From: an uncultured Agrobacterium sp.
GTDB taxonomy: Bacteria > Pseudomonadota > Alphaproteobacteria > Rhizobiales > Rhizobiaceae
Direction of reading: 5' to 3'
Assembly: GCA_913777615.1 (NCBI GenBank)
Contig: CAJYTK010000009.1
Span: 186,001-250,000, forward strand
DNA length: 64,000 bases
The notes under the pieces: generated by a model
Databases searched by the model: none
The model's input: the letters and a program-made list of their open reading frames with translations, nothing else
Told to the model about the DNA's origin: nothing
Part shown: positions 9,249 to 21,000 of the stretch, piece after piece
Numbering within the stretch: the stretch's first letter is position 1
Layout of the letters: every line of letters begins with the position of its first letter
Program-made: the position numbers and the translations under genes

Positions 9249-10256
9249 TTACTGGGCGCGAACTTCCTTGAGCTTGGCCTGAATGCCGTCAACGACATCC
9301 GCACCGATTTCAGCCTTGTGCTTTTCGTAGACGACCGCAGACTTTTCGCGGATACGCGCCTGCTCTTCCGCAGACAGAACGTTCACCTTCAGACCAGCTT
9401 CCTTGATCTTGTCGAGCGACTTCTGGTTCAGCGCGCGGATGACCTTGCGCTCTTCGTCACGACCAACGATCGCGCATTCGCGCAGAGCCGTCTGCTCTTC
9501 GGGCGTGTAGCTGTCAAAGATCGGCTTGGAGAAGAGGAAGAGGAACGGCGTGTAAGCGTGGTTCGTCTCGGTGACGAATTTCTGCACCTCGTAGAACTTG
9601 GAGGTGTCGATCGTCACATAGGGGTTTTCTTGTGCGTCGATCGCGTTGGTTTCCAGCGCCGAGAACACTTCACCGAAGGCCATCGGCGTGGCATTGGCAC
9701 CGAGGTTCTGGAAGGTGTCGAGGAAGATGTTGTTCTGCATCACGCGGACTTTGAGGCCGGAGAAGTCTTCCCACTTGTCGACCGCGCGCTTGGAGTTGGA
9801 CAGATTGCGGAAGCCGTTTTCCCAATAGGCAAGGTTTACGAGGCCCTGCTCTTCCAGCTTCTTGTTCATCATGTCGCCGAACTCGCCGTCGAGAACGGCG
9901 TCGACTTCCTTCGTGTTGGAGAACAGGAAGGGCAGATCGAAGACGCCGAGTGCCGGGATCAGGCCGACGAGCGGTGAGGAGGACGTCACGACTGCTTCCT
10001 GGACGCCAGAACGCAGTGCCTGCGTTGCCTGAAGGTCGCCGCCGAGAGCGCCGCCCCAGAAGGCCGTCATCTTCAGCTTGCCACCGGTCTTGTCATCGAG
10101 GCAGGCCTGCATGGCCTTGATGCCGTTGCCGACCGGGTGGTCCTGATTGATGCCATTCGACACGCGGATCATGCGGCTGTTGTATTCGGCGAAAGCAGGT
10201 GCCGTGGCACCGGCGGTGAAGGCGATGGCTGTTGTGAGTAGAAGTAGCTTTCTCAT
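9249..10256 (-). CDS. TRAP transporter periplasmic substrate-binding protein (DctP family)
   Basis: 335-residue secreted binding protein. An N-terminal signal peptide is clear (MRKLLLLTTAIAFTAGATAPAFA, cleavage after AFA at about 23). The DctP fold follows, with the conserved arginine region SGLKVRVMQNNIF (near 167) and the NPYVTIDTSKFYEVQ segment seen in organic- and sugar-acid receptors. It delivers ligand to the DctQ-DctM pair encoded just upstream on the same strand (84 bp from dctM). A GGGAGG ribosome site precedes the ATG. The genetic neighbours suggest that a sugar acid such as a pentonate or tetronate is the ligand; that is inference, not visible in the protein. Confidence 0.93.
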   Translation of the reverse strand: MRKLLLLTTAIAFTAGATAPAFAEYNSRMIRVSNGINQDHPVGNGIKAMQACLDDKTGGKLKMTAFWGGALGGDLQATQALRSGVQEAVVTSSSPLVGLIPALGVFDLPFLFSNTKEVDAVLDGEFGDMMNKKLEEQGLVNLAYWENGFRNLSNSKRAVDKWEDFSGLKVRVMQNNIFLDTFQNLGANATPMAFGEVFSALETNAIDAQENPYVTIDTSKFYEVQKFVTETNHAYTPFLFLFSKPIFDSYTPEEQTALRECAIVGRDEERKVIRALNQKSLDKIKEAGLKVNVLSAEEQARIREKSAVVYEKHKAEIGADVVDGIQAKLKEVRAQ

Positions 10257-10340
10257 GTTTTCCTCCCTTGGAATTGAGCAAGTCCAGTCAAGATGTGTGC
10301 GGCTTTACGGCCGCGAATGTGGTGGAGTGAGGAGTATTCC

Positions 10341-11618
10341 TCACCGCAGATATTGCAGCGGCACCATGACGATCTGCGGAAAGATCACCAGAAGAGCGAG
10401 CACGATGGTTTCGGCGACCAGGAACGGCCAGACGCCGACCGTCACCTTGCCCAGCGGAATGCGCCCGACGCCCGACACCACGTTGAGGACAACACCGACC
10501 GGCGGCGTAATGAGGCCGATGGCATTGTTGATGATGAAGAGCACGCCGAAATAGACCGGATCGATACCCGCCTGCTTGATGATCGGCATCAGAACGGGCG
10601 TCAGGATCAGGATAGTCGGCGTCAGATCGAGCGCGGTACCGACCACGAAGACCAGCACCATGATTACGGCCATGAGCAGCATCGGACGGTCGATCAGCGG
10701 CTCGATATAGCCCGCAACTTCCGCCGGAATATTGGCAGCGGTTATCAACCAGGCCGAAACCAGCGCTGCAGCAACGAGGAACATGATGATCGATGTGCTC
10801 TTGGCAGCGCGAAGCAGCACATGCCACAGATCCGCAGGCTTCAGCTCGCGGTAGATGACCATACCGACGAAGAGTGCATAAGCGGCGGCAATGACCGCGG
10901 CTTCCGTCGGCGTCATGATCCCGGCCTTGATGCCACCGAGAATGATAACCGGCATGCCGAGCGCCCATCCGGCGCGACCCGTTGCCACGAGACGTTCCTT
11001 TGCCGTCGTCTTCGGCAGCGGCTGGACATTGTCCTTACGCACGACGATCAGCCAGGCGATGATCAGGGATGCGCCCATCAGGACGCCAGGCACGATGCCG
11101 GCAAGGAAGAGTTGGGTAATCGACACGTTTGCCGCCACACCGAAGACGATAAAGGCCATGGACGGTGGGATAACGGGGGCGATGATGCCACCGGCAGCAA
11201 TCAGACCGCCGGAACGGGGAATGTTGTAACCGGCCTTCGCCATCATCGGGATGAGGATCGCCGCAAGTGCTGCGGTATCGGCTGCGGCCGAACCGGAAAT
11301 CGATGCCATGATGATCGCAGCGACGATGGCAACGATACCGAGACCGCCGCGAATATGGCCCACGAGTGCAATGGCAAAATCGATGATGCGGCGCGACAGT
11401 CCGCCGGAATTCATCAACTCACCCGCCAGGATGAAGAAGGGAATGGCGAGCAGCGTGAAGGTATCGGCGCCGGAAATCATGTTCTGGGCGATGATCGCCG
11501 TGTTGAACATGCCCATGTACCACATCAGCACGACGCCGCAGAACATCAGCGAGAAGGCGACCGGAACACCGATGGCCATGGCGCCGAGGAGCGAGCCGAC
11601 AAAAACGAAAAGTGTCAT
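10341..11618 (-). CDS. TRAP transporter large permease (DctM family)
   Basis: 425-residue inner-membrane protein with about 12 hydrophobic segments, the ion-coupled translocating subunit of a tripartite ATP-independent periplasmic transporter. Family landmarks include the N-terminus FVFVGSLLGAMAIGVPVAFSL, the PFFILAGELMNSGGLSRRIIDFA loop and the GIIAPVIPPSMAFIVFGV motif, repeated in the second half as ITPPVGVVLNVVSGV. The start is 3 bases after the stop of dctQ, so the two are translationally coupled. The symporter is expected to be sodium-driven. Length is typical. Confidence 0.95.
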   Translation of the reverse strand: MTLFVFVGSLLGAMAIGVPVAFSLMFCGVVLMWYMGMFNTAIIAQNMISGADTFTLLAIPFFILAGELMNSGGLSRRIIDFAIALVGHIRGGLGIVAIVAAIIMASISGSAAADTAALAAILIPMMAKAGYNIPRSGGLIAAGGIIAPVIPPSMAFIVFGVAANVSITQLFLAGIVPGVLMGASLIIAWLIVVRKDNVQPLPKTTAKERLVATGRAGWALGMPVIILGGIKAGIMTPTEAAVIAAAYALFVGMVIYRELKPADLWHVLLRAAKSTSIIMFLVAAALVSAWLITAANIPAEVAGYIEPLIDRPMLLMAVIMVLVFVVGTALDLTPTILILTPVLMPIIKQAGIDPVYFGVLFIINNAIGLITPPVGVVLNVVSGVGRIPLGKVTVGVWPFLVAETIVLALLVIFPQIVMVPLQYLR

Positions 11619-11621
11619 GTG

Positions 11622-12152
11622 TCAGCGCTCCGAAAGCTGTTCGATGGTGAGATTTTCACCGGCAAAGGCGGCAATCTCGTCTTCGCGAACCTTGCCCGTC
11701 AGAAACCGGTAGAGCCGTTCCAGTGCGATGATGAACATAATGCCGCCGGTGAACATGCCGATGCCATAAACCCAGATCATCGACAGACCCGTGACCGGCG
11801 CATGCATGCTGGCATTGATGCCGGACTGCTTCCATGTCCCCCAGAAGAAGATCGCCGAGCAAAGAAGGATGATGATGTTCGACAGGATCATGCAGAATAT
11901 GCGCATGCGCCGCGACAGGAACATCACCAGCGTTTCGATGCCCATATGGCTGTTTTCACGGAAGGTCACGACCGCACCGACGAAGGTGATCCAGACGAAG
12001 AAATAGCGCGCCAGTTCTTCCGAGACATTGATGCCGGAATTCATGGTGTAGCGCATGACCACATTGACGAAGACCATGATTGCCATGCCTGCGAGAAGCG
12101 CGACGAGAATGGTCTCGAGGATGCGGTAAAAAAGATTGATGACTTTCTGCAT
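11622..12152 (-). CDS. TRAP transporter small permease (DctQ family)
   Basis: 176-residue membrane protein with four hydrophobic helices (about 12-38, 50-70, 88-110, 130-152). The DctQ-type loop RYTMNSGINVSEELARYFFVWITFVGA lies between the first two. It is the small accessory subunit that pairs with the large permease and docks the binding protein. Start ATG follows GGGAGGGG. The gene is 114 bp downstream of the FAH-superfamily dehydratase gene and probably shares its transcript, linking uptake to catabolism. Confidence 0.93.
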   Translation of the reverse strand: MQKVINLFYRILETILVALLAGMAIMVFVNVVMRYTMNSGINVSEELARYFFVWITFVGAVVTFRENSHMGIETLVMFLSRRMRIFCMILSNIIILLCSAIFFWGTWKQSGINASMHAPVTGLSMIWVYGIGMFTGGIMFIIALERLYRFLTGKVREDEIAAFAGENLTIEQLSER

Positions 12153-12266
12153 CTTCCCCTCCCGAGAATGCTGCGAGGCGGCGCGGACACACGAAGGTGC
12201 GCGCGCAACGGTCTAAGCCTTAAGGATATGCGTGCCGCGCCAGGCGAACTCGCCCGGCAACGGAGA

Positions 12267-13427
12267 TTATAGAAGCCCGCGCTTTGCGAGATTGCGCATC
12301 AATGCCGTGGTGCCGAAGGTCCATTCCGGACAATCGGATGTGCTGGCCACCCAGTTGACCAGCTTACCCAACCTCGGGCTTGAGATTTCCACGCGGTCAC
12401 CCTTGGCATGGGTGAAACCAAGGCCCGGGCCATGACGATCCTTGACCGGAGCGAACATCGTGCCGAGAAAGAAGACGGCGCCGTCCGGATACTGGTGATC
12501 GCGGTTCAAGAGCTGCGACACCAGGTTTTCCGGCGTGCGGCTGATCGCCTGCATTGGGCTCACACCCGTCATGGTGAAACCATCTTCACCTTCGACGAGC
12601 AACGAAATCTGCGCCTGCTTGACGTCGTCCAGCGTGAACTTGCCATCGAAAAGACGGATGAACGGGCCGATCGAGCAGGAAGCGTTGTTGTCTTTCGCCT
12701 TGCTGAGCAACAGGGCGGAGCGCCCTTCGAAATCTCGCAAGTTGACGTCGTTACCGAGCGCTGCACCGACGATGCGACCGTCGGAGGTGACGGCCAGCAC
12801 GACTTCCGGCTCGGGATTGTTCCACTGCGACTTCGGATGAACACCGATCAACGAGCCGCAGCCAACGGACGACAAGGGCTGCGCCTTGGAGAAAATCTCC
12901 GCGTCGGGGCCGATACCGACCTCCAGATATTGCGACCAAAGGCCCATTTCCTGCAGCAGGCGCTTAACCTCGGCAGCCTTTTCGGAGCCCGCCTCGACAC
13001 CCTTGAGGCTATCGCCAAGCACGGGGGCCAGGCGGCCGCGAATTTCCTGTGCGCGCTGCGGATCACCCTTTGCCTGTTCTTCGATGACGCGTTCCAGCAT
13101 ACTATCGGCGAAGGTAACGCCGGCAGCCTTCACCGCCTGAATGTCGTTCGGCGCAAGCAGTTGTCCAGCCGAACCATCAAGAAAAGCGTCAAAGGCCCCG
13201 AGTGCAGCAAATTGCATGGTGTCGGCCAGACGATTGATGAGATCATGCTTTTCCAGCAGTTCCGAAACGGTCGGCGCGAGGCTGGAAAGATCGTAGAGAA
13301 CACCGTCCTTCAACAGGACGGGACACGGGCCATCTTCGCTCTTGGACCAGACGCGACCGATCAGGATGGCATCCTGATGGTCTTCCGGCAAAATTGCAGC
13401 TGATTCGACAGTCCTGATTCCGACCAA
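12267..13427 (-). CDS. FAH-superfamily 2-keto-3-deoxy-pentonate dehydratase (XylX-like)
   Basis: 386-residue enzyme of the fumarylacetoacetate hydrolase superfamily. The C-terminal half matches the Caulobacter XylX type (2-keto-3-deoxy-D-xylonate dehydratase, Weimberg pathway) as I recall it: LWSQYLEVGIGPDAEIF (163-179), NNPEPEVVL (203-211), GNDVNLRDFEGRSALLLSKAKDN (225-247), HQYPDG and the C-terminus LMRNLAKRGLL. The metal-site acids would be E206/E208 and D227/D232. The expected reaction is 2-keto-3-deoxy-pentonate to alpha-ketoglutarate semialdehyde, which the aldehyde dehydrogenase of this cluster could oxidise to 2-oxoglutarate. The start is TTG at 13427 after GGAGGG. A palindromic operator lies 55 bases upstream. 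Related FAH enzymes can be hydrolases instead, so exact chemistry and stereochemistry are open. Confidence 0.82.
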   Translation of the reverse strand: MVGIRTVESAAILPEDHQDAILIGRVWSKSEDGPCPVLLKDGVLYDLSSLAPTVSELLEKHDLINRLADTMQFAALGAFDAFLDGSAGQLLAPNDIQAVKAAGVTFADSMLERVIEEQAKGDPQRAQEIRGRLAPVLGDSLKGVEAGSEKAAEVKRLLQEMGLWSQYLEVGIGPDAEIFSKAQPLSSVGCGSLIGVHPKSQWNNPEPEVVLAVTSDGRIVGAALGNDVNLRDFEGRSALLLSKAKDNNASCSIGPFIRLFDGKFTLDDVKQAQISLLVEGEDGFTMTGVSPMQAISRTPENLVSQLLNRDHQYPDGAVFFLGTMFAPVKDRHGPGLGFTHAKGDRVEISSPRLGKLVNWVASTSDCPEWTFGTTALMRNLAKRGLL

Positions 13428-13481
13428 GCCTTATCCCTCCCACTTTCAGACCATCCGACAGCTGCCTCCACAGCACCTATA

Positions 13482-13500
13482 TTGTCTGGATGTCTGACAA
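13482..13500. promoter_or_regulatory. Candidate GntR/FCD operator upstream of the XylX-like gene
   Basis: TTGTCTGGATGTCTGACAA: outer TTGTC and GACAA half-sites, with the nested perfect 9-bp palindrome TGTC-T-GACA at 13491-13499. It is followed by CCT, giving GACAACCT as also seen at 15944-15950. Position between the gntR stop and the dehydratase start fits repression of the dehydratase-TRAP genes. Confidence 0.6.
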
Positions 13501-13618
13501 CCTGAATACGTACATCTTCTTAGTATGAGAAAAACGCTTAGTCCAGCCTGCATTGCTTCGAATCTCGGCGGAAAGTCGTAAAATCAAAACCGGCGCGGAC
13601 AAGCAGTAGTGCCCTTGC

Positions 13619-14338
13619 TCAGGAATAGACTTCGAGATGGAGATTGACGCGCTCGGCGGCACCGGACAGATGCGCGCGCATTGCAGCCCGGGCAGCCGAC
13701 GAATCTGAGGCGGCAACCGCTTCATAGATCGCCACATGCTCAGCAATCGTGGTTTCAAGAATCTCGCCGAAGACGGCGCGGGAAAAGGCTGTGTTGATGG
13801 CCGAACTGATCCGTTCTGCAATAAAGCCCAGGAACATCGAGAAGTAATCGTTCTGGGTGGCGTCGGCGAGCGTCCGATGGAAATCGAGATCGGCCGCAAT
13901 CCCGTCCTTTTCCCATACCGGCGCGTGGCGCATGTTGTGGACCGCCGTCTTCAGCCGCTCCAGTTGCGCGTCCGTGCGGTGGACGGCAGCAAGTCCTGCC
14001 GCCTCTATTTCAAGAGGCATGCGCAACTGAAAGAGATCGCGGAAATTATCCGGATCGTTGAGTTTGGATCGTTCGATACGGATAGAAACGCGCTGCCTCG
14101 GATCGGTGACGAAAGCGCCGACACCCTGGCGGGTTTCGACCGCACCCTCGTTGCGCAGCTGAGCAATCGCTTCGCGGATGACAGAGCGACTAACCCCGAA
14201 GGTTTTGGAGAGCGCATGCTCCGTCGGTAGCTTGTCACCGGCTTTCAGCTTTCCATCATTGATCTCACGCGCGATCTCCGCAGCAATACGGCCGGGAAGA
14301 TGATCTGCGCGGTGAATCTGATTGAACTCCAACGTCAT
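13619..14338 (-). CDS. GntR-family regulator, FadR/FCD subfamily
   Basis: 239-residue ligand-responsive DNA-binding protein. The winged helix occupies about 12-80 (LPTEHALSKTFGVSRSVIREAIAQLRNEGAVETRQGVGAFV). The all-helical FCD effector domain (about 95-230) shows the metal-binding set DLDFHRTLADATQN (D and H), IAEHVAIYEAV and MRAHL, typical of FCD proteins that sense carboxylates or sugar acids. The gene lies 51 bp downstream of the FAD oxidoreductase and upstream of the XylX-like gene, all minus strand. Two related palindromes in the cluster (13482-13500 and 15933-15951) are the natural candidates for its operators. It most likely represses the island until the substrate or an intermediate is present. 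Confidence 0.93.
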   Translation of the reverse strand: MTLEFNQIHRADHLPGRIAAEIAREINDGKLKAGDKLPTEHALSKTFGVSRSVIREAIAQLRNEGAVETRQGVGAFVTDPRQRVSIRIERSKLNDPDNFRDLFQLRMPLEIEAAGLAAVHRTDAQLERLKTAVHNMRHAPVWEKDGIAADLDFHRTLADATQNDYFSMFLGFIAERISSAINTAFSRAVFGEILETTIAEHVAIYEAVAASDSSAARAAMRAHLSGAAERVNLHLEVYS

Positions 14339-14389
14339 GATGGCTCCCGGTGGACACGAAACGCCGATGAGGGCGCATTTCTACTTCTT

Positions 14390-15835
14390 CTAGCTAGCCA
14401 CTTGTACGGCAAGCTGGCAACCGGGATTCATGCGAAGCTGCGGATCGAAAGCGGCTTTCAGCCGCTCGATCATATCCCGCTGCACGTAACCAAGCCGGCT
14501 TTCGAAATCCTCCCGCTTCAATCGGCCAATGCCGTGTTCAGCGCTGATGCTGCCTGCGTAGCGGTCGAGCACCGTGTTGACGATGACCTTGGCCTTATAG
14601 ATGAACGCATCCCGCTCTTCCCGCGTGCTGCCGTTAGGCGGAAGCACGTTGAGATGCACATTGCCGTCTCCGACATGACCATAGGAAACCGCCAGGCATT
14701 CCGGCAATTGTTTGGCGAGCTCGGCTTCCGCCTCCGCAACGAACTGAGCAAGGCGGGAAAGCGGCACGGAAATATCGGTGCGCATATGGGCGCCACGCAG
14801 CGCCTGCCCCTCATTCATGCCCTCGCGGAACAGCCAGAGCGATTGCGCCTGCGCACGCGAGGAGGCAATGACGCCATCGAGCACAAGCCCGTCTTCCATA
14901 ACGCCTTCGAGGAAGCGGCTCATAAGATCGCCGGTATCGACCAGACCCGAGCCGGAAATTTCCATCAGCACATAGGCTGCGTAATTGTCCGCGATCGGCA
15001 TTTTCAGAGCGGGAATTGCTTCCATGGCAAGTGCGAAGGCGACCGGAGGCATGAATTCGAAGGCTGACATCAGATCGCAGCACTCCCGGCGGGCGCGACG
15101 GTAAAGCTTGATCGCGTCATCAAGCGAGTTCAACCCGAGGAGCGCGGTCTCGACATGATCGGGATTTGGATAGAGCTTGACCGACACGGCAGTGACGATG
15201 CCGAGCGTGCCTTCCGCGCCAATGAAAAGCTGCTTGAGGTCGATGCCGCGATTGTCCTTGCGAAGTGTCGAGAGACCGTTCCAGATCGTTCCATCCGGCA
15301 GCACCACTTCAAGACCGAGCACCAGCTCTCGCGTCATGCCATAGCGAAGCACATTGATGCCGCCGGCATTGGTCGAGACATTACCGCCGATGCGGCATGA
15401 CCCTTGCGCACCGAGAGACAGTGGGAAAAACATGCCCTTTTCCTGCACCGCATCCTTGAATTCCGACAGGATGCAGCCCGCCTCCACCACGGCAGAAAAG
15501 TCTTCCGTATCGATGGAACGGATAGCGTTCATGCGCTCGAGGCTGAGAACGACCTGGCGGTCCGGCGCGTCGGGAACGCCGCCGAGCACGAGACCGGTAT
15601 TGCCGCCCTGCGGCACGATAGCAAGACCAAGCTCTGCGCAGAGCCTGACGGCGGCGGCGACGTCCTCCACATTACGGGGGCGAATGACGGCGACCGCGCC
15701 ACTGGACACATCGCCATGCCAGTCGCGACAATAGCGAACCATGTCTGTCGTGTCCGTCAGAACCAGCTCATCGCCAAGACTGGCCGTTAAGGACGCCTGC
15801 AACTCCTCGCGTGATCGCTCTTGACCCTTGAGCAT
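14390..15835 (-). CDS. FAD-linked 2-hydroxyacid dehydrogenase (GlcD / D-2-hydroxyglutarate dehydrogenase type)
   Basis: 481-residue flavoprotein of the VAO/PCMH family. The FAD-binding half contains RNVEDVAAAVRLCAELGLAIVPQGGNTGLVLGG and LGAQGSCRIGGNVSTNAGG. The FAD-oxidase C domain carries YGHVGDGNVHLNVLPP (metal-binding histidines) and SAEHGIGRLKR. Members oxidise D-2-hydroxyacids such as D-lactate, glycolate or D-2-hydroxyglutarate and pass electrons to quinones or electron-transfer flavoprotein. Within this cluster it may oxidise the C2 hydroxyl of a sugar acid or a short product; that is inference. ATG 15835 follows AGAGGG by 5 bases; an in-frame GTG at 15853 would use that site as codons and is less likely. 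It is divergent from the DenD-like gene. Confidence 0.88.
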   Translation of the reverse strand: MLKGQERSREELQASLTASLGDELVLTDTTDMVRYCRDWHGDVSSGAVAVIRPRNVEDVAAAVRLCAELGLAIVPQGGNTGLVLGGVPDAPDRQVVLSLERMNAIRSIDTEDFSAVVEAGCILSEFKDAVQEKGMFFPLSLGAQGSCRIGGNVSTNAGGINVLRYGMTRELVLGLEVVLPDGTIWNGLSTLRKDNRGIDLKQLFIGAEGTLGIVTAVSVKLYPNPDHVETALLGLNSLDDAIKLYRRARRECCDLMSAFEFMPPVAFALAMEAIPALKMPIADNYAAYVLMEISGSGLVDTGDLMSRFLEGVMEDGLVLDGVIASSRAQAQSLWLFREGMNEGQALRGAHMRTDISVPLSRLAQFVAEAEAELAKQLPECLAVSYGHVGDGNVHLNVLPPNGSTREERDAFIYKAKVIVNTVLDRYAGSISAEHGIGRLKREDFESRLGYVQRDMIERLKAAFDPQLRMNPGCQLAVQVAS

Positions 15836-15932
15836 CTGCCCTCTCGCCTCCACCCCGGCGGTAACGCTACTTTGGCGTCTCCGCTCTTAAATTTTTCGGT
15901 TTTTCAAAATACTGTTTTCAAGCTAGCAATAT

Positions 15933-15951
15933 AAGGTTATCAGACAACCTT
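15933..15951. promoter_or_regulatory. Candidate GntR/FCD operator in the divergent promoter region
   Basis: AAGGTTATCAGACAACCTT, a near-perfect 19-bp palindrome (8 of 9 pairs plus a centre base). It lies in the 154-bp region between the divergent FAD oxidoreductase and DenD-like genes, 39 bases before the latter's ATG. It shares the half-site GACAACCT with the site at 13482-13503, so both are probably read by the cluster's GntR protein. Confidence 0.65.
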
Positions 15952-15989
15952 ACAAGTTAAATTTTTGGACGGTGAGGAGGAGACACAGG

Positions 15990-16976
15990 ATGCATATCGC
16001 GATTATCGGGGCAGCCGGAATGGTGGGGCGAAAGCTGACCGAAAGATTGGTTCGTGAAGGAGGTCTGAGCGGCAGGGCCATCGAGAAATTCACGCTGATC
16101 GACGTGTTTCAACCAGAGCCGCCCGCCGGCTTCGATGGCACGGTCGATGCGCGCGCAGCCGATCTTTCCGCGCCCGGCGAGGCCGAAAAGCTGGTTTCCG
16201 CAAGACCCGATGTGATCTTCCATCTGGCGGCCATCGTCTCTGGCGAAGCCGAGCTCGATTTCGACAAGGGCTATCGCATCAATCTGGATGGCACGCGCTA
16301 TCTTTTCGACGCAATCCGAATTGCCAACGGTCAGGATGGCTACAAGCCGCGTGTGGTCTTCACCTCGTCCATCGCCGTCTTCGGCGCGCCGCTGCCATAC
16401 CCGATCCCCGACGATTTCCACACCACGCCTTTGACCAGCTATGGTACGCAGAAAGCGATTTCGGAGTTGCTGCTGTCCGATTACACCCGCCGCGGTTTCT
16501 TCGAAGGCATCGGCATTCGCCTGCCGACGATCTGCATCCGTCCCGGAAAGCCGAATGCTGCCGCGTCCGGCTTCTTCTCCAACATTCTGCGCGAGCCGCT
16601 GGTAGGCCAGGAAGCCGTGCTGCCAGTGCCAGAGACCATCCGCCACTGGCATGCTTCGCCGCGTTCGGCTGTCGGCTTCCTGCTGCATGGCGCAACCATC
16701 GATTCCGACAAGGTCGGTCCCCGGCGCAATCTTTCCATGCCGGGCCTGAGTGCAACGGTCGGCGAGCAGATCGAGGCGCTGCGTAAGGTCGCCGGCGAAA
16801 AGGCCGTCAGCCTTATCCGCCGCGAGCCGAATGAGATGATCATGCGCATGTGCGAAGGCTGGGCTCCCGGCTTTGAAGCCACCCGCGCCCGCGAACTGGG
16901 CTTCACCGCCGAAACGAATTTCGAAGAGATCATCAAGGTCCATATCGAAGACGAGCTGGGAGGTTCGCTGAAATGA
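15990..16976 (+). CDS. NAD-dependent epimerase/dehydratase-family dehydrogenase (D-erythronate dehydrogenase DenD-like)
   Basis: 328-residue extended short-chain dehydrogenase. The N-terminal Rossmann motif is GAAGMVG (7-13) and the catalytic set is S126/S127, Y151 and K155 (TSYGTQK). The overall pattern (HIAIIGAAGMVGRKLTERL, ASGFFSNILREPL, RHWHASPRSAVGFLLH) is that of DenD proteins, which oxidise D-erythronate at C2 with NAD. It is not a sugar-nucleotide epimerase of the usual kind. ATG 15990 is preceded by GAGGAGGAG; an upstream GTG falls inside that ribosome site. The stop overlaps the next start (ATGA). Classical DenD neighbours OtnK and OtnC, a kinase and an aldolase for four-carbon acids, are absent, so the true substrate may be another aldonate. 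Confidence 0.83.
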   Translation: MHIAIIGAAGMVGRKLTERLVREGGLSGRAIEKFTLIDVFQPEPPAGFDGTVDARAADLSAPGEAEKLVSARPDVIFHLAAIVSGEAELDFDKGYRINLDGTRYLFDAIRIANGQDGYKPRVVFTSSIAVFGAPLPYPIPDDFHTTPLTSYGTQKAISELLLSDYTRRGFFEGIGIRLPTICIRPGKPNAAASGFFSNILREPLVGQEAVLPVPETIRHWHASPRSAVGFLLHGATIDSDKVGPRRNLSMPGLSATVGEQIEALRKVAGEKAVSLIRREPNEMIMRMCEGWAPGFEATRARELGFTAETNFEEIIKVHIEDELGGSLK

Positions 16977-17875
16977 CGGGATCTGACAAACAAGCACGCA
17001 CCATAGCCTTTCTCGGCACCGGCCTGATGGGCGGACCGATGGCCCGCAACCTGTTGAAGGCAGGCTTCACAGTTCGCGTCTGGAACCGCAGCACGGAGAA
17101 AGCACAGGCGCTGATGGAGGATGGCGCCATGCTTGCCGCCTCTCCCGCTGAGGCCGCCAAAGGCGCCAATATCGTCATCACGATGCTGAGCGATGGCAAC
17201 GCTGTCGGCAATGTGCTGTTCGACATGGGCGTTGCCAACGCGCTGGGAAAAGGCGCCATCGTCATCGATAGCAGTTCGATTGCACCGCCAATTGCCCGTG
17301 ACCATTCGCAAAAACTGAAAGCGCTGGGCATTGCTCATGTGGACGCACCCGTCTCCGGCGGCGTGCCGGGGGCGACAGCCGGAACGCTGGCGATCATGGC
17401 CGGTGGCGACGAGGCGACGGTGACAAGCCTTGGCGATATCTTCTCCGCCATGGGGCGGTTGACCTATGTTGGACCATCCGGGGCGGGACAGCTTTGCAAG
17501 CTCGCCAACCAGCAGATCGTCGCCATCACCATCGGCGCGGTGGCAGAAGCCATGATGCTGGTCGAAGCGGGTGGCGCATCGCGTGAAGGCTTCCGCAACG
17601 CCATCCGTGGCGGCTTTGCCGAAAGCCGCATTCTGGAACTGCATGGCGAGCGCATGGTGAAACGCAACTTCACCCCCGGCGGTCCGTCGAAGTTCCAGCT
17701 GAAGGATTTGAACGGCGTTCTGGCAACCGCCAAGGATCTCGATCTGGCGCTGCCACTGACGGAAGAAGTGACCCGCGCCTTCGATGCCTTCGTCAACGAC
17801 GGTGGCGCAGACAAGGATCATAGCGGCCTGCTGCTGCATCTGGAAAGGCTCAACAAGCGAGAGCATGAGAGCTGA
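16973..17875 (+). CDS. NAD(P)-dependent beta-hydroxyacid dehydrogenase (3-hydroxyisobutyrate dehydrogenase / GarR family)
   Basis: 300-residue dehydrogenase. Rossmann motif FLGTGLMGGPMARN (13-26), substrate-binding DAPVSGGVPGATAGTL (124-139) and the catalytic lysine K176 with N179 in AGQLCKLANQ. The family covers 3-hydroxyisobutyrate dehydrogenase, tartronate semialdehyde reductase and L-threonate dehydrogenase LtnD; residues alone do not decide among these. It starts within the last codons of the DenD-like gene (4-bp overlap), so the two enzymes are translationally coupled and probably act in consecutive or parallel sugar-acid oxidations. Confidence 0.88.
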   Translation: MTGSDKQARTIAFLGTGLMGGPMARNLLKAGFTVRVWNRSTEKAQALMEDGAMLAASPAEAAKGANIVITMLSDGNAVGNVLFDMGVANALGKGAIVIDSSSIAPPIARDHSQKLKALGIAHVDAPVSGGVPGATAGTLAIMAGGDEATVTSLGDIFSAMGRLTYVGPSGAGQLCKLANQQIVAITIGAVAEAMMLVEAGGASREGFRNAIRGGFAESRILELHGERMVKRNFTPGGPSKFQLKDLNGVLATAKDLDLALPLTEEVTRAFDAFVNDGGADKDHSGLLLHLERLNKREHES

Positions 17876-18048
17876 TTAAAAAATCATACAATTAGATGGG
17901 CAGACGCCTTTCGCGATGGGATGACATGACATAGGGTCACCGCCGACGTCGTCGCGCGTAGTCGTGCGACGCACCCGCACGGGAGGAAGGCAGCGCCCAG
18001 ACGCTGCCAGAACGCCGAAGAATTCAAGATATTATAGGGAGTACACCC

Positions 18049-19482
18049 ATGACAATTCATCAAAACCTTATCAACGGCGAGTGGATCGGCGCTGACACGT
18101 CGAAGAACATCAATCCATCCGACACAAACGAAGTCGTCGGTCATTACGCCCAGGCTTCCGCCGATGACGCGAAGCAGGCGATTGCAGCAGCCAAGGCCGC
18201 ATTTCCGGCCTGGTCGCGCTCCGGCATTCTTGAGCGTCACGCCATCCTGAAGAAGACCGCCGACGAAATTCTCGCCCGCAAGGACGAGCTCGGCGCGCTT
18301 CTGGCCCGCGAAGAAGGAAAGGTTCTTGCCGAAGGCATCGGCGAAACGATCCGTGCCGCGCAGATTTTCGATTTCTTTGCCGGCGAAGCATTGCGCCTGG
18401 CAGGCGAGGTCATTCCGTCCGCTCGCCCGAATATCGGCGTCGAAGTCACACGCGAGCCTCTCGGCGTCATCGGCATCATCACGCCCTGGAACTTCCCGAT
18501 CGCCATTCCGGCCTGGAAGATTGCACCGGCGCTTTGCTACGGCAACACCATCGTCTTCAAGCCTGCCGACCTCGTTCCCGGTTGCGCATGGGCGATCGTC
18601 GATATCCTGCATCGCGCAGGCCTGCCGAATGGCGTTCTGAACCTCGTCATGGGTCGCGGCTCCGTCGTCGGCCAAGCCATGCTCGACAGCCCGGATCTTG
18701 CCGGCATCACCTTTACCGGCTCCACCGGCACTGGCCAGCGCGTCGCAGCTTCGTCGCTGCCTTTCAACCGCAAGTTCCAGCTGGAAATGGGCGGCAAGAA
18801 CCCCTTCGTCGTTCTCGATGATGCGGATCTCGGCGTCGCCGTGGAAGCTGCAGCCAACTCCGGCTTCTACTCTACCGGACAGCGTTGCACCGCCTCTTCG
18901 CGCATCATCGTCACCGAAGGCATTCACGACAAGTTCGTGTCAGCGCTTTCCGAGCGTCTGGCCAAGATCAATGTCGGCAATGCCATGTCGAAGGACACCC
19001 ATGTCGGACCGGTCGTCGATGAAAAGCAGCTGAAGCAGGATTGCGACTATATCGAAATCGGCAAAAAAGAGGGCGCGAAGCTGGCCTTTGGCGGCGAAGT
19101 GCTGAAGCGCGAAACCCCCGGCTTCTTCCTGCAGCCGACCCTGTTCACCGAAGCCACCAATGACATGCGCATCTCGCGCGAGGAAATCTTCGGACCGGTC
19201 GCCTCAGTCATCCGCGTCAAGGATTACGACGAGGCTCTGGCCGTTGCCAACGACACGCCCTTCGGCCTGTCCTCCGGCATCGCCACCACCAGCCTGAAGC
19301 ACGCCACCCACTTCAAGCGCAATGCCGAAGCCGGCATGGTCATGGTCAACCTGCCAACCGCAGGCGTCGACTTCCACGTTCCCTTCGGCGGCCGTAAGGC
19401 ATCGTCCTTCGGCCCGCGTGAGCAGGGCAAGTATGCCAACGAATTCTTCACCACGGTGAAGACGGCCTACACGCTGGCATAA
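18049..19482 (+). CDS. Aldehyde dehydrogenase, alpha-ketoglutarate semialdehyde dehydrogenase-like
   Basis: 477-residue NAD(P)-dependent aldehyde dehydrogenase. Catalytic residues are all present: N148 (PWNFP), E246 (LEMGGKN) and nucleophile C280 (STGQRCTASSR). The RCTASSR context resembles GucD/YcbD and other ketoglutaric semialdehyde dehydrogenases. In this setting it would oxidise alpha-ketoglutarate semialdehyde, the expected product of the XylX-like dehydratase, to 2-oxoglutarate. It lies 173 bp after the hydroxyacid dehydrogenase, with its own AGGGAG ribosome site, and is closed by a strong terminator that marks the end of the island. Succinate-semialdehyde or other aldehydes cannot be excluded. 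Confidence 0.88.
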   Translation: MTIHQNLINGEWIGADTSKNINPSDTNEVVGHYAQASADDAKQAIAAAKAAFPAWSRSGILERHAILKKTADEILARKDELGALLAREEGKVLAEGIGETIRAAQIFDFFAGEALRLAGEVIPSARPNIGVEVTREPLGVIGIITPWNFPIAIPAWKIAPALCYGNTIVFKPADLVPGCAWAIVDILHRAGLPNGVLNLVMGRGSVVGQAMLDSPDLAGITFTGSTGTGQRVAASSLPFNRKFQLEMGGKNPFVVLDDADLGVAVEAAANSGFYSTGQRCTASSRIIVTEGIHDKFVSALSERLAKINVGNAMSKDTHVGPVVDEKQLKQDCDYIEIGKKEGAKLAFGGEVLKRETPGFFLQPTLFTEATNDMRISREEIFGPVASVIRVKDYDEALAVANDTPFGLSSGIATTSLKHATHFKRNAEAGMVMVNLPTAGVDFHVPFGGRKASSFGPREQGKYANEFFTTVKTAYTLA

Positions 19483-20595: not shown

Positions 20596-21000
20596 ATGAT
20601 CATGGAAATCACCCGCGCTGGCACGAAACCATCGGGCAAAGGCTCTTCCGACTATTTCACCGGAACGGTCCGCATCGATCCACTGTTCAATCCGCATGAT
20701 GCAGAGCGCGTGCAGGGCGCGCAGGTAACTTTTGAGCCCGGTGCCCGCACAGCTTGGCATACCCATCCGCTTGGTCAGACACTGATCGTGACCTCCGGAT
20801 CGGGACTGGTGCAGCGTGAAGGCGGCCCTATCGAGAAGATCGCGCCCGGCGATATCGTCTGGTTTGCACCGGAGGAAAAGCATTGGCATGGCGCGTCGCC
20901 GCAAACTGCCATGACCCACATTGCCATTCAGGAAGTGAAGGACGGCAAGGTGGTGGACTGGATGGAGCATGTAACCGACACGCAATACGCGGGCGGTTGA
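20596..21000 (+). CDS. Small cupin-domain protein
   Basis: 134-residue single-domain cupin. Cupin motif 1 is [22 protein letters not shown] (two metal-ligand histidines in HTH) and motif 2 is [15 protein letters not shown] with its conserved histidines. ATG 20596 has a GAGACGAGGA ribosome site; a second in-frame ATG follows two codons later. Such proteins are annotated as quercetinase- or carboxymuconolactone-decarboxylase-associated cupins, but few have known activity. It follows the serine/threonine dehydratase-like gene closely. A metal-dependent dioxygenase or isomerase role is possible; I do not assign one. Confidence 0.85.

Follow-up and report, generated by a model that had tools for sequence, protein, structure and literature searches.

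Among the described systems that come closest to the locus studied here is the Weimberg pathway of Caulobacter crescentus, encoded by the xylXABCD genes. Here, we analysed a 64-kb stretch of DNA from an uncultured Agrobacterium sp. (contig CAJYTK010000009.1, positions 186,001 to 250,000; hereafter the window), which carries an island of nine genes predicted to act on sugar acids. They encode a TRAP transporter (dctP, dctM, and dctQ), a GntR/FCD regulator (gntR), an FAH-superfamily protein, an aldehyde dehydrogenase (ALDH), a GlcD-like dehydrogenase, a D-erythronate-dehydrogenase-type protein (DenD), and a 3-hydroxyisobutyrate-dehydrogenase-type (HIBADH-type) protein. An initial annotation, made from the letters alone, had described a Weimberg-type ending without a linked dehydratase and had found no named pathway to match it. 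That observation is confirmed: the nine genes are intact open reading frames (ORFs) at positions 9249..19482, as first given, family searches agree with their identities, and tblastn of the window with the XylD-like IlvD/EDD dehydratase and the enolase-superfamily protein of relatives, and with a further IlvD/EDD protein from contig C7 of the window's genome (the C7 enzyme), gave a best E value of 0.2. Its interpretation is partly supported, in that the island is not an unmatched pathway but matches, apart from its missing dehydratase, a cluster widespread among rhizobia.

We compared the island with the best 80 of at least 567 stretches related to its FAH protein (70–96% identity; L labels denote loci and G labels genomes). 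Each locus extends at most 10 kb past the FAH gene, and 6 of the 80 are shorter than 21 kb; because of this limited length, linked genes may be undercounted. glcD, denD, and the TRAP gene dctM are present at 64 of the 80 loci (core+TRAP loci), 62 of which also have the HIBADH-type gene. A XylD-like IlvD/EDD dehydratase is linked at 46/64 and an enolase-superfamily protein at 37/64, and one or both are linked at 60/64. The remaining four are L001 and L002, the window's sister loci, along with L017 and L018, which keep an enolase-type gene elsewhere in the genome (85–86%). The relatives' IlvD scores highest against 5oyn (1041 bits), which we take to be Caulobacter XylD, then against the galactonate dehydratase 7m3k (816 bits) and an L-arabinonate dehydratase (480 bits). 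The closest solved relative of the enolase-type protein, 4dx3, is named by family only, and we infer that this protein is a dehydratase. Since 60 of the 64 relatives have a linked dehydratase-type gene, the step missing from the window is a lineage-specific loss from a widespread rhizobial sugar-acid cluster, which is made up of glcD, denD, gntR, FAH, and TRAP genes and a conserved operator, and whose dehydratases are interchangeable. A literature search, with subscription journals mostly outside its reach, found no paper describing this cluster.

The loss can be followed within Agrobacterium. At L012, ilvD follows the HIBADH-type gene by 11 bp and precedes the ALDH gene by 41 bp; in the window, the same two genes are separated by 173 bp, and ilvD is cleanly gone with no detectable remnant. 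The sister loci L001, L002, and L134–L137 also lack a linked sugar-acid dehydratase. On a quick maximum-likelihood tree of 81 FAH rows, the window, L001, L002, and L011 group together (SH-aLRT 88), nested in a 13-row Agrobacterium group (SH-aLRT 100) whose other nine rows are ilvD-bearing. Whole-genome searches took in the genomes of 40 of the 80 loci for IlvD and of 25 for the enolase-type protein, and no orthologue of either was found in the window's genome or in two sister genomes. The enolase-type orthologue is present at 89–90% in all eight ilvD-bearing Agrobacterium-group genomes searched (L003, L004, L006–L010, and L012) and missing from all four ilvD-less ones (the window, L001, and L002, with a best match of 52% each, and L011, with nothing at 1e-120). 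Absence from the window's genome alone is weak evidence, since that genome is 91.85% complete; the sister genome G059 consists of two contigs, so that incomplete assembly alone does not explain the missing ilvD.

Across 39 genomes of the genus, an ilvD orthologue (92–100%) is present in 24, and the other 15 have only a C7-type protein (62–63%) instead. DenD (at least 75%) is found in 37 of the 39, including 13 of the 15 that lack ilvD. We fetched the locus from the 12 DenD-bearing, ilvD-less genomes other than the window's. denD, glcD, and gntR are present together in 12/12, TRAP genes in 11/12, FAH in 8/12, the HIBADH-type and ALDH genes in 4/12, and an IlvD orthologue in 0/12; the only dehydratase-like matches at 33% or above were enolase-type (51%) and IlvD-type (39%). 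In G087, G080, G085, and G078, the locus contains DenD and GlcD but no HIBADH-type gene, which makes these two the constant pair and speaks against a simple reading in which three enzymes act together. Agrobacterium offers a series, from the cluster with ilvD, through the cluster with ilvD and ALDH (L012), to the cluster with ALDH and no dehydratase (the window's clade), and on to clusters without dehydratase, HIBADH-type gene, or ALDH and then to a core without a linked FAH gene. This series makes it directly testable what each enzyme does and how a pathway can outlive the loss of its committed step.

The genes left in place are under purifying selection. In pairwise comparisons by the Nei-Gojobori method (the window and five of the 80 loci), the ratio of nonsynonymous to synonymous substitution rates (dN/dS) between the window, L001, and L002 was 0.010–0.100 for every island gene whose dS was not saturated (that of gntR was, between the window and L002); the neighbouring acs gene gave 0.021–0.031. 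In the minimal clusters L143–L145, the ratio was 0.017–0.093 for dctP, dctM, glcD, denD, and gntR. Such selection suggests that the dehydratase-less island is probably still functional.

The FAH protein (386 residues) is 96% identical to its counterpart in Agrobacterium cavarae RZME10 and presumably belongs to COG3970. The FAH-superfamily proteins that PMC6336799 places in COG3970 are dehydratases of 2-keto-3-deoxypentonate (KDP) assayed in that study. Residues E177, K245, E206, E208, and D227 of the window protein align with the catalytic residues of the Sulfolobus KDP dehydratase, namely a catalytic Glu/Lys dyad and three metal ligands (residue roles as given in PMC9795676), and all five are identical in 81 of 81 FAH sequences (the window and its 80 relatives). 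A His-x-x-Glu motif, expected of the hydrolase branch (Route III) and derived by us from the His83/Glu86 pair mentioned in PMC6336799, is absent from the window protein. By its sequence, the protein is a predicted KDP dehydratase. D-specific enzymes of KDP dehydration have also been characterised (PMC7374468). The closest solved structure is 9kkt (E 1.3e-120), for which our literature search found no paper that names it. Searched against the window's genome at E 0.001, the FAH protein matched itself alone and none of three further PF01557 proteins. The best match of the ALDH is the alpha-ketoglutaric semialdehyde (KGSA) dehydrogenase model NF042993 (558.9 bits, E 9.4e-168), and a paralogue (85% identical) lies elsewhere in the genome. 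Among solved structures, the ALDH matched nothing at 1e-100, and at 1e-70, the best were general aldehyde dehydrogenases, with none named for KGSA among the matches listed. The Weimberg-type ending named in the initial annotation is probably right.

All four D-pentonates give one 2-keto-3-deoxy-D-pentonate (D-KDP), as dehydration removes the C2 and C3 stereocentres, and GlcD-type enzymes oxidise 2-hydroxyacids. With confidence a little above even, we read the island as a pruned Weimberg-type (Route II) D-pentonate cluster whose first dehydration falls to an unlinked, non-orthologous enzyme and whose dehydrogenases adjust C2. The TRAP system would import sugar acids. The XylD-like dehydratase that the cluster originally had would have been removed by a deletion ancestral to the window's clade, and the first dehydration would now be carried out by another sugar-acid dehydratase, most likely the C7 enzyme. 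The FAH protein would dehydrate D-KDP, and the ALDH would oxidise the resulting alpha-ketoglutaric semialdehyde to alpha-ketoglutarate. The most likely role of GlcD, DenD, and the HIBADH-type enzyme is to oxidise imported aldonates at C2 and reduce them again, turning other epimers into the accepted one. This role, which is our own suggestion, may be profitable where a strict dehydratase feeds one common D-KDP. It would be useful because the IlvD-type sugar-acid dehydratases tested discriminate between the D-pentonates: PuDHT accepts D-xylonate but shows no activity on D-ribonate, D-arabinonate, or D-lyxonate, which is said of sugar-acid dehydratases generally (PMC9314677).

Several lines of evidence carry this reading: the dehydratases linked at most core+TRAP loci, the adjacency of ilvD and ALDH at L012, the nested position of the window's clade, and the retention, at L011, of FAH and ALDH alone from the island. 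Unlinked dehydratases also have a precedent. In five genomes (L033, L041, L049, L058, and L072), the FAH locus has no dehydratase, a XylD orthologue (82–86%) lies elsewhere in the genome, and an enolase-type orthologue (84–91%) lies within ~10 kb of it; these are a precedent for an FAH protein served from another locus. We also looked at seven annotated loci, chosen among 25 of 279 plasmid records. The cluster is present in Sinorhizobium meliloti strain ml45. In Paracoccus liaowanqingii, xylA and a GH43 gene lie next to the complete cluster, Rhodococcus opacus has enolase-type, ALDH, and FAH genes in a row, and Ensifer canadensis has lactonase, enolase-type, short-chain dehydrogenase/reductase (SDR), aldose epimerase, and FAH genes together, all of which favours pentoses. 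In R. leguminosarum 4B, FAH is next to Gfo/Idh and unrelated genes. In Paracoccus denitrificans, FAH occurs with a dihydrodipicolinate-synthase-family gene, an ALDH gene, a shikimate-dehydrogenase gene, and an altronate-dehydratase gene nearby, and at Brucella-group loci, a gluconokinase gene adjoins gntR (188 bits at L033; cut-off 113.75); these three contexts do not favour pentoses or favour other acids. Pentonates are our best guess at the substrate.

Four IlvD/EDD proteins are encoded in the window's genome, and the nearest to the lost one (62%) is the C7 enzyme (G000:C7:112620-114404). It was rejected as an orthologue of the lost ilvD, given 62% against 92–100% among orthologues in the genus, and is kept as the leading candidate for a functional replacement only. 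It ends in histidine, as do the assayed sugar-acid dehydratases described in PMC9314677. Further candidates are several enolase-family proteins, the best of them 52% identical to the cluster's enolase-type protein, and two UxaA/GarD-type genes (C6 and C9), both outside the window. An enolase-family protein on C9 first looked L-fuconate-dehydratase-like by eye; its NCBIfam matches all fall under the cut-off (best, L-talarate/galactarate dehydratase, 117 against 500).

Two operator-like sites accompany the cluster. The gap between denD and glcD contains GGTTGTCTGATAAC in 64 of 65 sequences (exception L080), and the gap between gntR and FAH contains TTGTC-N-GACA in 58 of 61 (exceptions L002, L067, and L080). 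In 13 further Agrobacterium loci, with the second pattern slightly loosened, the first site was found in 13/13 and the second in 12/13 (L138 has no gap). In the window, the first pattern at three mismatches has 2 matches, as many as in 58 of 100 shuffles and hence no excess over chance, and the second has 2 matches, as many as in 1 of 100 shuffles; the case for an operator is built on conservation and position, not on frequency in the window. A scan of the 4.55-Mb genome returned just the two island sites at up to one mismatch, and at two mismatches 13 further sites against 8 for a reversed control. The 17 stretches fetched from the surroundings of candidate dehydratase genes and of the ALDH paralogue gave two looser matches, neither of them upstream of a dehydratase gene. 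An unlinked dehydratase sharing the operator, which the initial annotation had named as the case that would turn the island into a standard split pathway, was therefore not found in the genome scan or in the 17 stretches, a search that weak sites would escape: the FAH gene of A. bohemicum (L071) sits apart from the TRAP core and keeps an operator-like site that deviates by at least two bases from the scan pattern. Relocation within the regulon thus has a precedent in A. bohemicum. No island operator site occurs in the 173-bp gap upstream of the ALDH gene. An inverted repeat, TGACATAGGGTCA, is present there at 17927-17939, is shared with L001 and nearly with L002, and possibly gives the ALDH separate control.

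The pathway proposed above builds on gene content, conservation, dehydratase loss, continued selection, operator conservation, and the FAH catalytic residues; its every reaction and substrate and its replacement dehydratase are predicted, as are all enzyme and transporter functions of the island, and several findings weigh against it. The C7 enzyme matches 7m3k, a galactonate dehydratase, at 1202 bits, occurs as well in all 24 genus genomes that keep ilvD, has no copy of the island operator, and in some relatives has a GguC/AraD1 gene and genes for an ABC transporter in its neighbourhood, so that it may natively serve another purpose. The window's ALDH falls short of its equivalog cut-off of 770 bits, and a gene of its kind is present at just 4 of the 64 core loci. 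The ilvD orthologue is missing from 13 of 37 DenD-bearing genus genomes, and G051, G067, and G079 have the TRAP-gntR-glcD-denD core without a linked FAH gene. We do not claim from this that FAH is dispensable, as G051 is the genome of L071 (identical match coordinates), where an FAH orthologue lies elsewhere, and the absence in G067 and G079 concerns linked genes only. The joint loss of both cluster dehydratases in Agrobacterium suggests that they served one job that was dropped whole. The two also occur as a pair outside this group, in the five genomes with unlinked dehydratases, which adds a caution to that precedent. If they did serve one job, the remainder may need neither, and the rest of the island may have a dehydratase-independent role. 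Joint loss is what would be expected of a pathway that, in the window's clade, runs without any sugar-acid dehydratase, through C2 oxidation, action of the FAH protein on a 2-keto or 3-deoxy acid, and the ALDH as finisher. We regard such a pathway as quite unlikely; if real, it would be a dehydratase-independent Weimberg variant that arose by deletion of one step.

Alternatively, the substrate could arrive deoxygenated, with the TRAP system importing a 3-deoxyaldonate or 2-keto-3-deoxy acid, GlcD oxidising C2 to give the 2-keto-3-deoxy acid, and FAH and ALDH finishing, so that the pathway would call for no dehydratase. We think this unlikely, even if it fits the joint loss and a clade without an unlinked enzyme, the solved relatives of GlcD include 2-hydroxyacid dehydrogenases, and the conjugative plasmid pAtCFBP7129a carries gntR-FAH-dctQMP with no glcD, denD, dehydratase, or ALDH beside them; the last comparison covers the plasmid alone. 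A dehydratase-type gene kept beside the same genes in nearly all core+TRAP relatives argues the other way, and DenD and the HIBADH-type enzyme would be left without a role. It is very unlikely, in our judgement, that GlcD or DenD oxidises C2 of a pentonate and the FAH protein then eliminates water from the 2-keto acid to give a dicarbonyl. The absence of both dehydratase orthologues from the window's and two sister genomes, with the other genes under selection, would agree with such a short cut, but the five catalytic residues are the same as in dehydratase-bearing relatives, no enzyme for the dicarbonyl product is evident, and we know of no FAH enzyme that eliminates water from a 2-ketopentonate. 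We give the same slim chance to a tetronate pathway, in which DenD and the HIBADH-type enzyme would turn D-erythronate or L-threonate into 2-oxo-tetronate for an unlinked kinase and aldolase. DenD makes 2-oxo-tetronate from D-erythronate (PMC10580937), and the window's DenD passes its equivalog cut-off (NF043036, 359.1 bits against 325); the HIBADH-type protein, however, fails the L-threonate dehydrogenase (LtnD) equivalog NF043037 (143.8 against 350), family searches confined to the island proteins found no OtnK, OtnC, or OtnI, and the FAH, ALDH, and XylD-like partners suit a C5 acid. Finally, decay of the island after dehydratase loss is hardly credible. The dehydratase is deleted, L011 is down to FAH and ALDH, and in one sister genome (L134, two contigs), dctM aligns in three pieces, which may mean that the gene is broken or that the sequence contains an error. 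Against this stand the low dN/dS across the three dehydratase-less genomes (0.01–0.10), the intact frames of the window, and both of its operator sites, which are kept.

The layout of the island is given in Table 1. The minus-strand genes run from dctP to glcD, and the three plus-strand genes diverge from glcD. The denD and HIBADH-type genes overlap by 4 bp. The initial annotation had listed a sugar dehydrogenase and OtnK/OtnC as absent; family searches found neither an aldose dehydrogenase nor a lactonase among the island proteins. The three transporter genes are adjacent, and DctQ was assigned by position and a match under the cut-off alone (YiaM, 94.5 bits, E 8.3e-27; cut-off 260). DctP passes TIGR00787 (248.2 bits; cut-off 175.05). 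The FAH protein passes PF01557 (30.7; cut-off 23.9) and has no NCBIfam match at 1e-5. The names of GlcD, the HIBADH-type protein, and the ALDH are family-level, since all score under curated equivalog cut-offs. GlcD reaches 246 against 567.9 for TIGR00387, with 3pm9 and 6lpn as its best solved relatives, and the best NCBIfam match of the HIBADH-type protein is 265.4 against 340.75.

Table 1. Positions of island features in the 64-kb window
Feature	Position	Strand	Basis
dctP, TRAP solute-binding protein	9249..10256	-	TIGR00787 and PF03480
dctM, TRAP large permease	10341..11618	-	TIGR00786, 457.2 bits (cut-off 268.45)
dctQ, TRAP small permease	11622..12152	-	YiaM-like; position between FAH and dctM
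FAH-superfamily (XylX-like) protein, probable 2-keto-3-deoxy-D-pentonate dehydratase	12267..13427	-	Catalytic residues by alignment
Operator-like site TTGTCAGACATCCAGACAA between gntR and FAH	13482..13500	-	0 mismatches in window
GntR/FCD transcriptional regulator	13619..14338	-	PF00392 and PF07729
GlcD/D-2-hydroxyglutarate-dehydrogenase-like FAD-linked 2-hydroxyacid dehydrogenase	14390..15853	-	PF01565 and PF02913
Operator-like palindrome GGTTATCAGACAACC, divergent denD/glcD promoter region	15935..15949	+	GGTTGTCTGATAAC on other strand
denD, NAD-dependent D-erythronate-dehydrogenase-type SDR	15972..16976	+	NF043036
3-hydroxyisobutyrate/tartronate-semialdehyde-reductase-type (HIBADH-type) dehydrogenase	16973..17875	+	PF03446 and PF14833
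Gap of 173 bp, ilvD position in locus L012	17876..18048		No remnant detected
ALDH, probable alpha-ketoglutaric semialdehyde dehydrogenase	18049..19482	+	NF042993

A cupin gene adjoining the island (20614-21000) scores above the NCBIfam threshold for (R)-mandelonitrile lyase (199.2 against 140), and its neighbours resemble threo-3-hydroxyaspartate ammonia-lyase and L-2-hydroxyglutarate oxidase genes, both under the cut-off. Among the related loci, the glcD, HIBADH-type, and enolase-type genes of L035 (Brucella cytisi) seem broken into shorter frames, and the single locus L062, on a Rhizobium plasmid, contains ilvD, dctM, dctP, and the enolase-type gene twice. An A. tumefaciens plasmid typed as conjugative (L128: 9093-14042) carries gntR-FAH-dctQMP, with none of the other island genes next to them, as a possible mobile cassette.

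Compared with known systems, the island shares single elements with several. GguC/AraD1-type clusters, which serve arabinose and galactose, have an IlvD/EDD gene near a GguC/AraD1 gene (NF040903, 519 bits against 340) and ABC transporter genes, and the C7 dehydratase belongs to their IlvD group; unlike the island, they have a different FAH-like gene, an ABC rather than a TRAP transporter, and a different regulator. From the D-erythronate/L-threonate pathway (DenD, LtnD, OtnI, OtnK, and OtnC), the island has DenD in common, with the LtnD model unmatched and no kinase or aldolase among its proteins. The best solved relative of DctP is 7bbr (E 9.7e-84), presumably CxaP of Advenella mimigardefordensis. 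A review lists D-xylonate, D-fuconate, D-galactonate, and D-gluconate as CxaP ligands (PMC12076931), and by its similarity to 7bbr, the window's DctP may bind aldonates. The Route II/III clusters of Herbaspirillum huttiense and Paraburkholderia mimosarum share the FAH-superfamily KDP dehydratase; there, unlike in the island, a UxaA/GarD-type D-arabinonate dehydratase is linked, and the Results and Discussion of that study do not describe the DenD/GlcD/HIBADH set (PMC6336799). Unlike xylXABCD, the island encodes neither a sugar dehydrogenase nor a lactonase, has no dehydratase linked to it, and adds TRAP uptake of the acid and three extra dehydrogenases. With the Weimberg cluster of Caulobacter crescentus, it nevertheless has in common a XylX-type FAH dehydratase and a KGSA-type dehydrogenase, as predicted here, and its relatives share with that pathway the XylD-like IlvD/EDD dehydratase.

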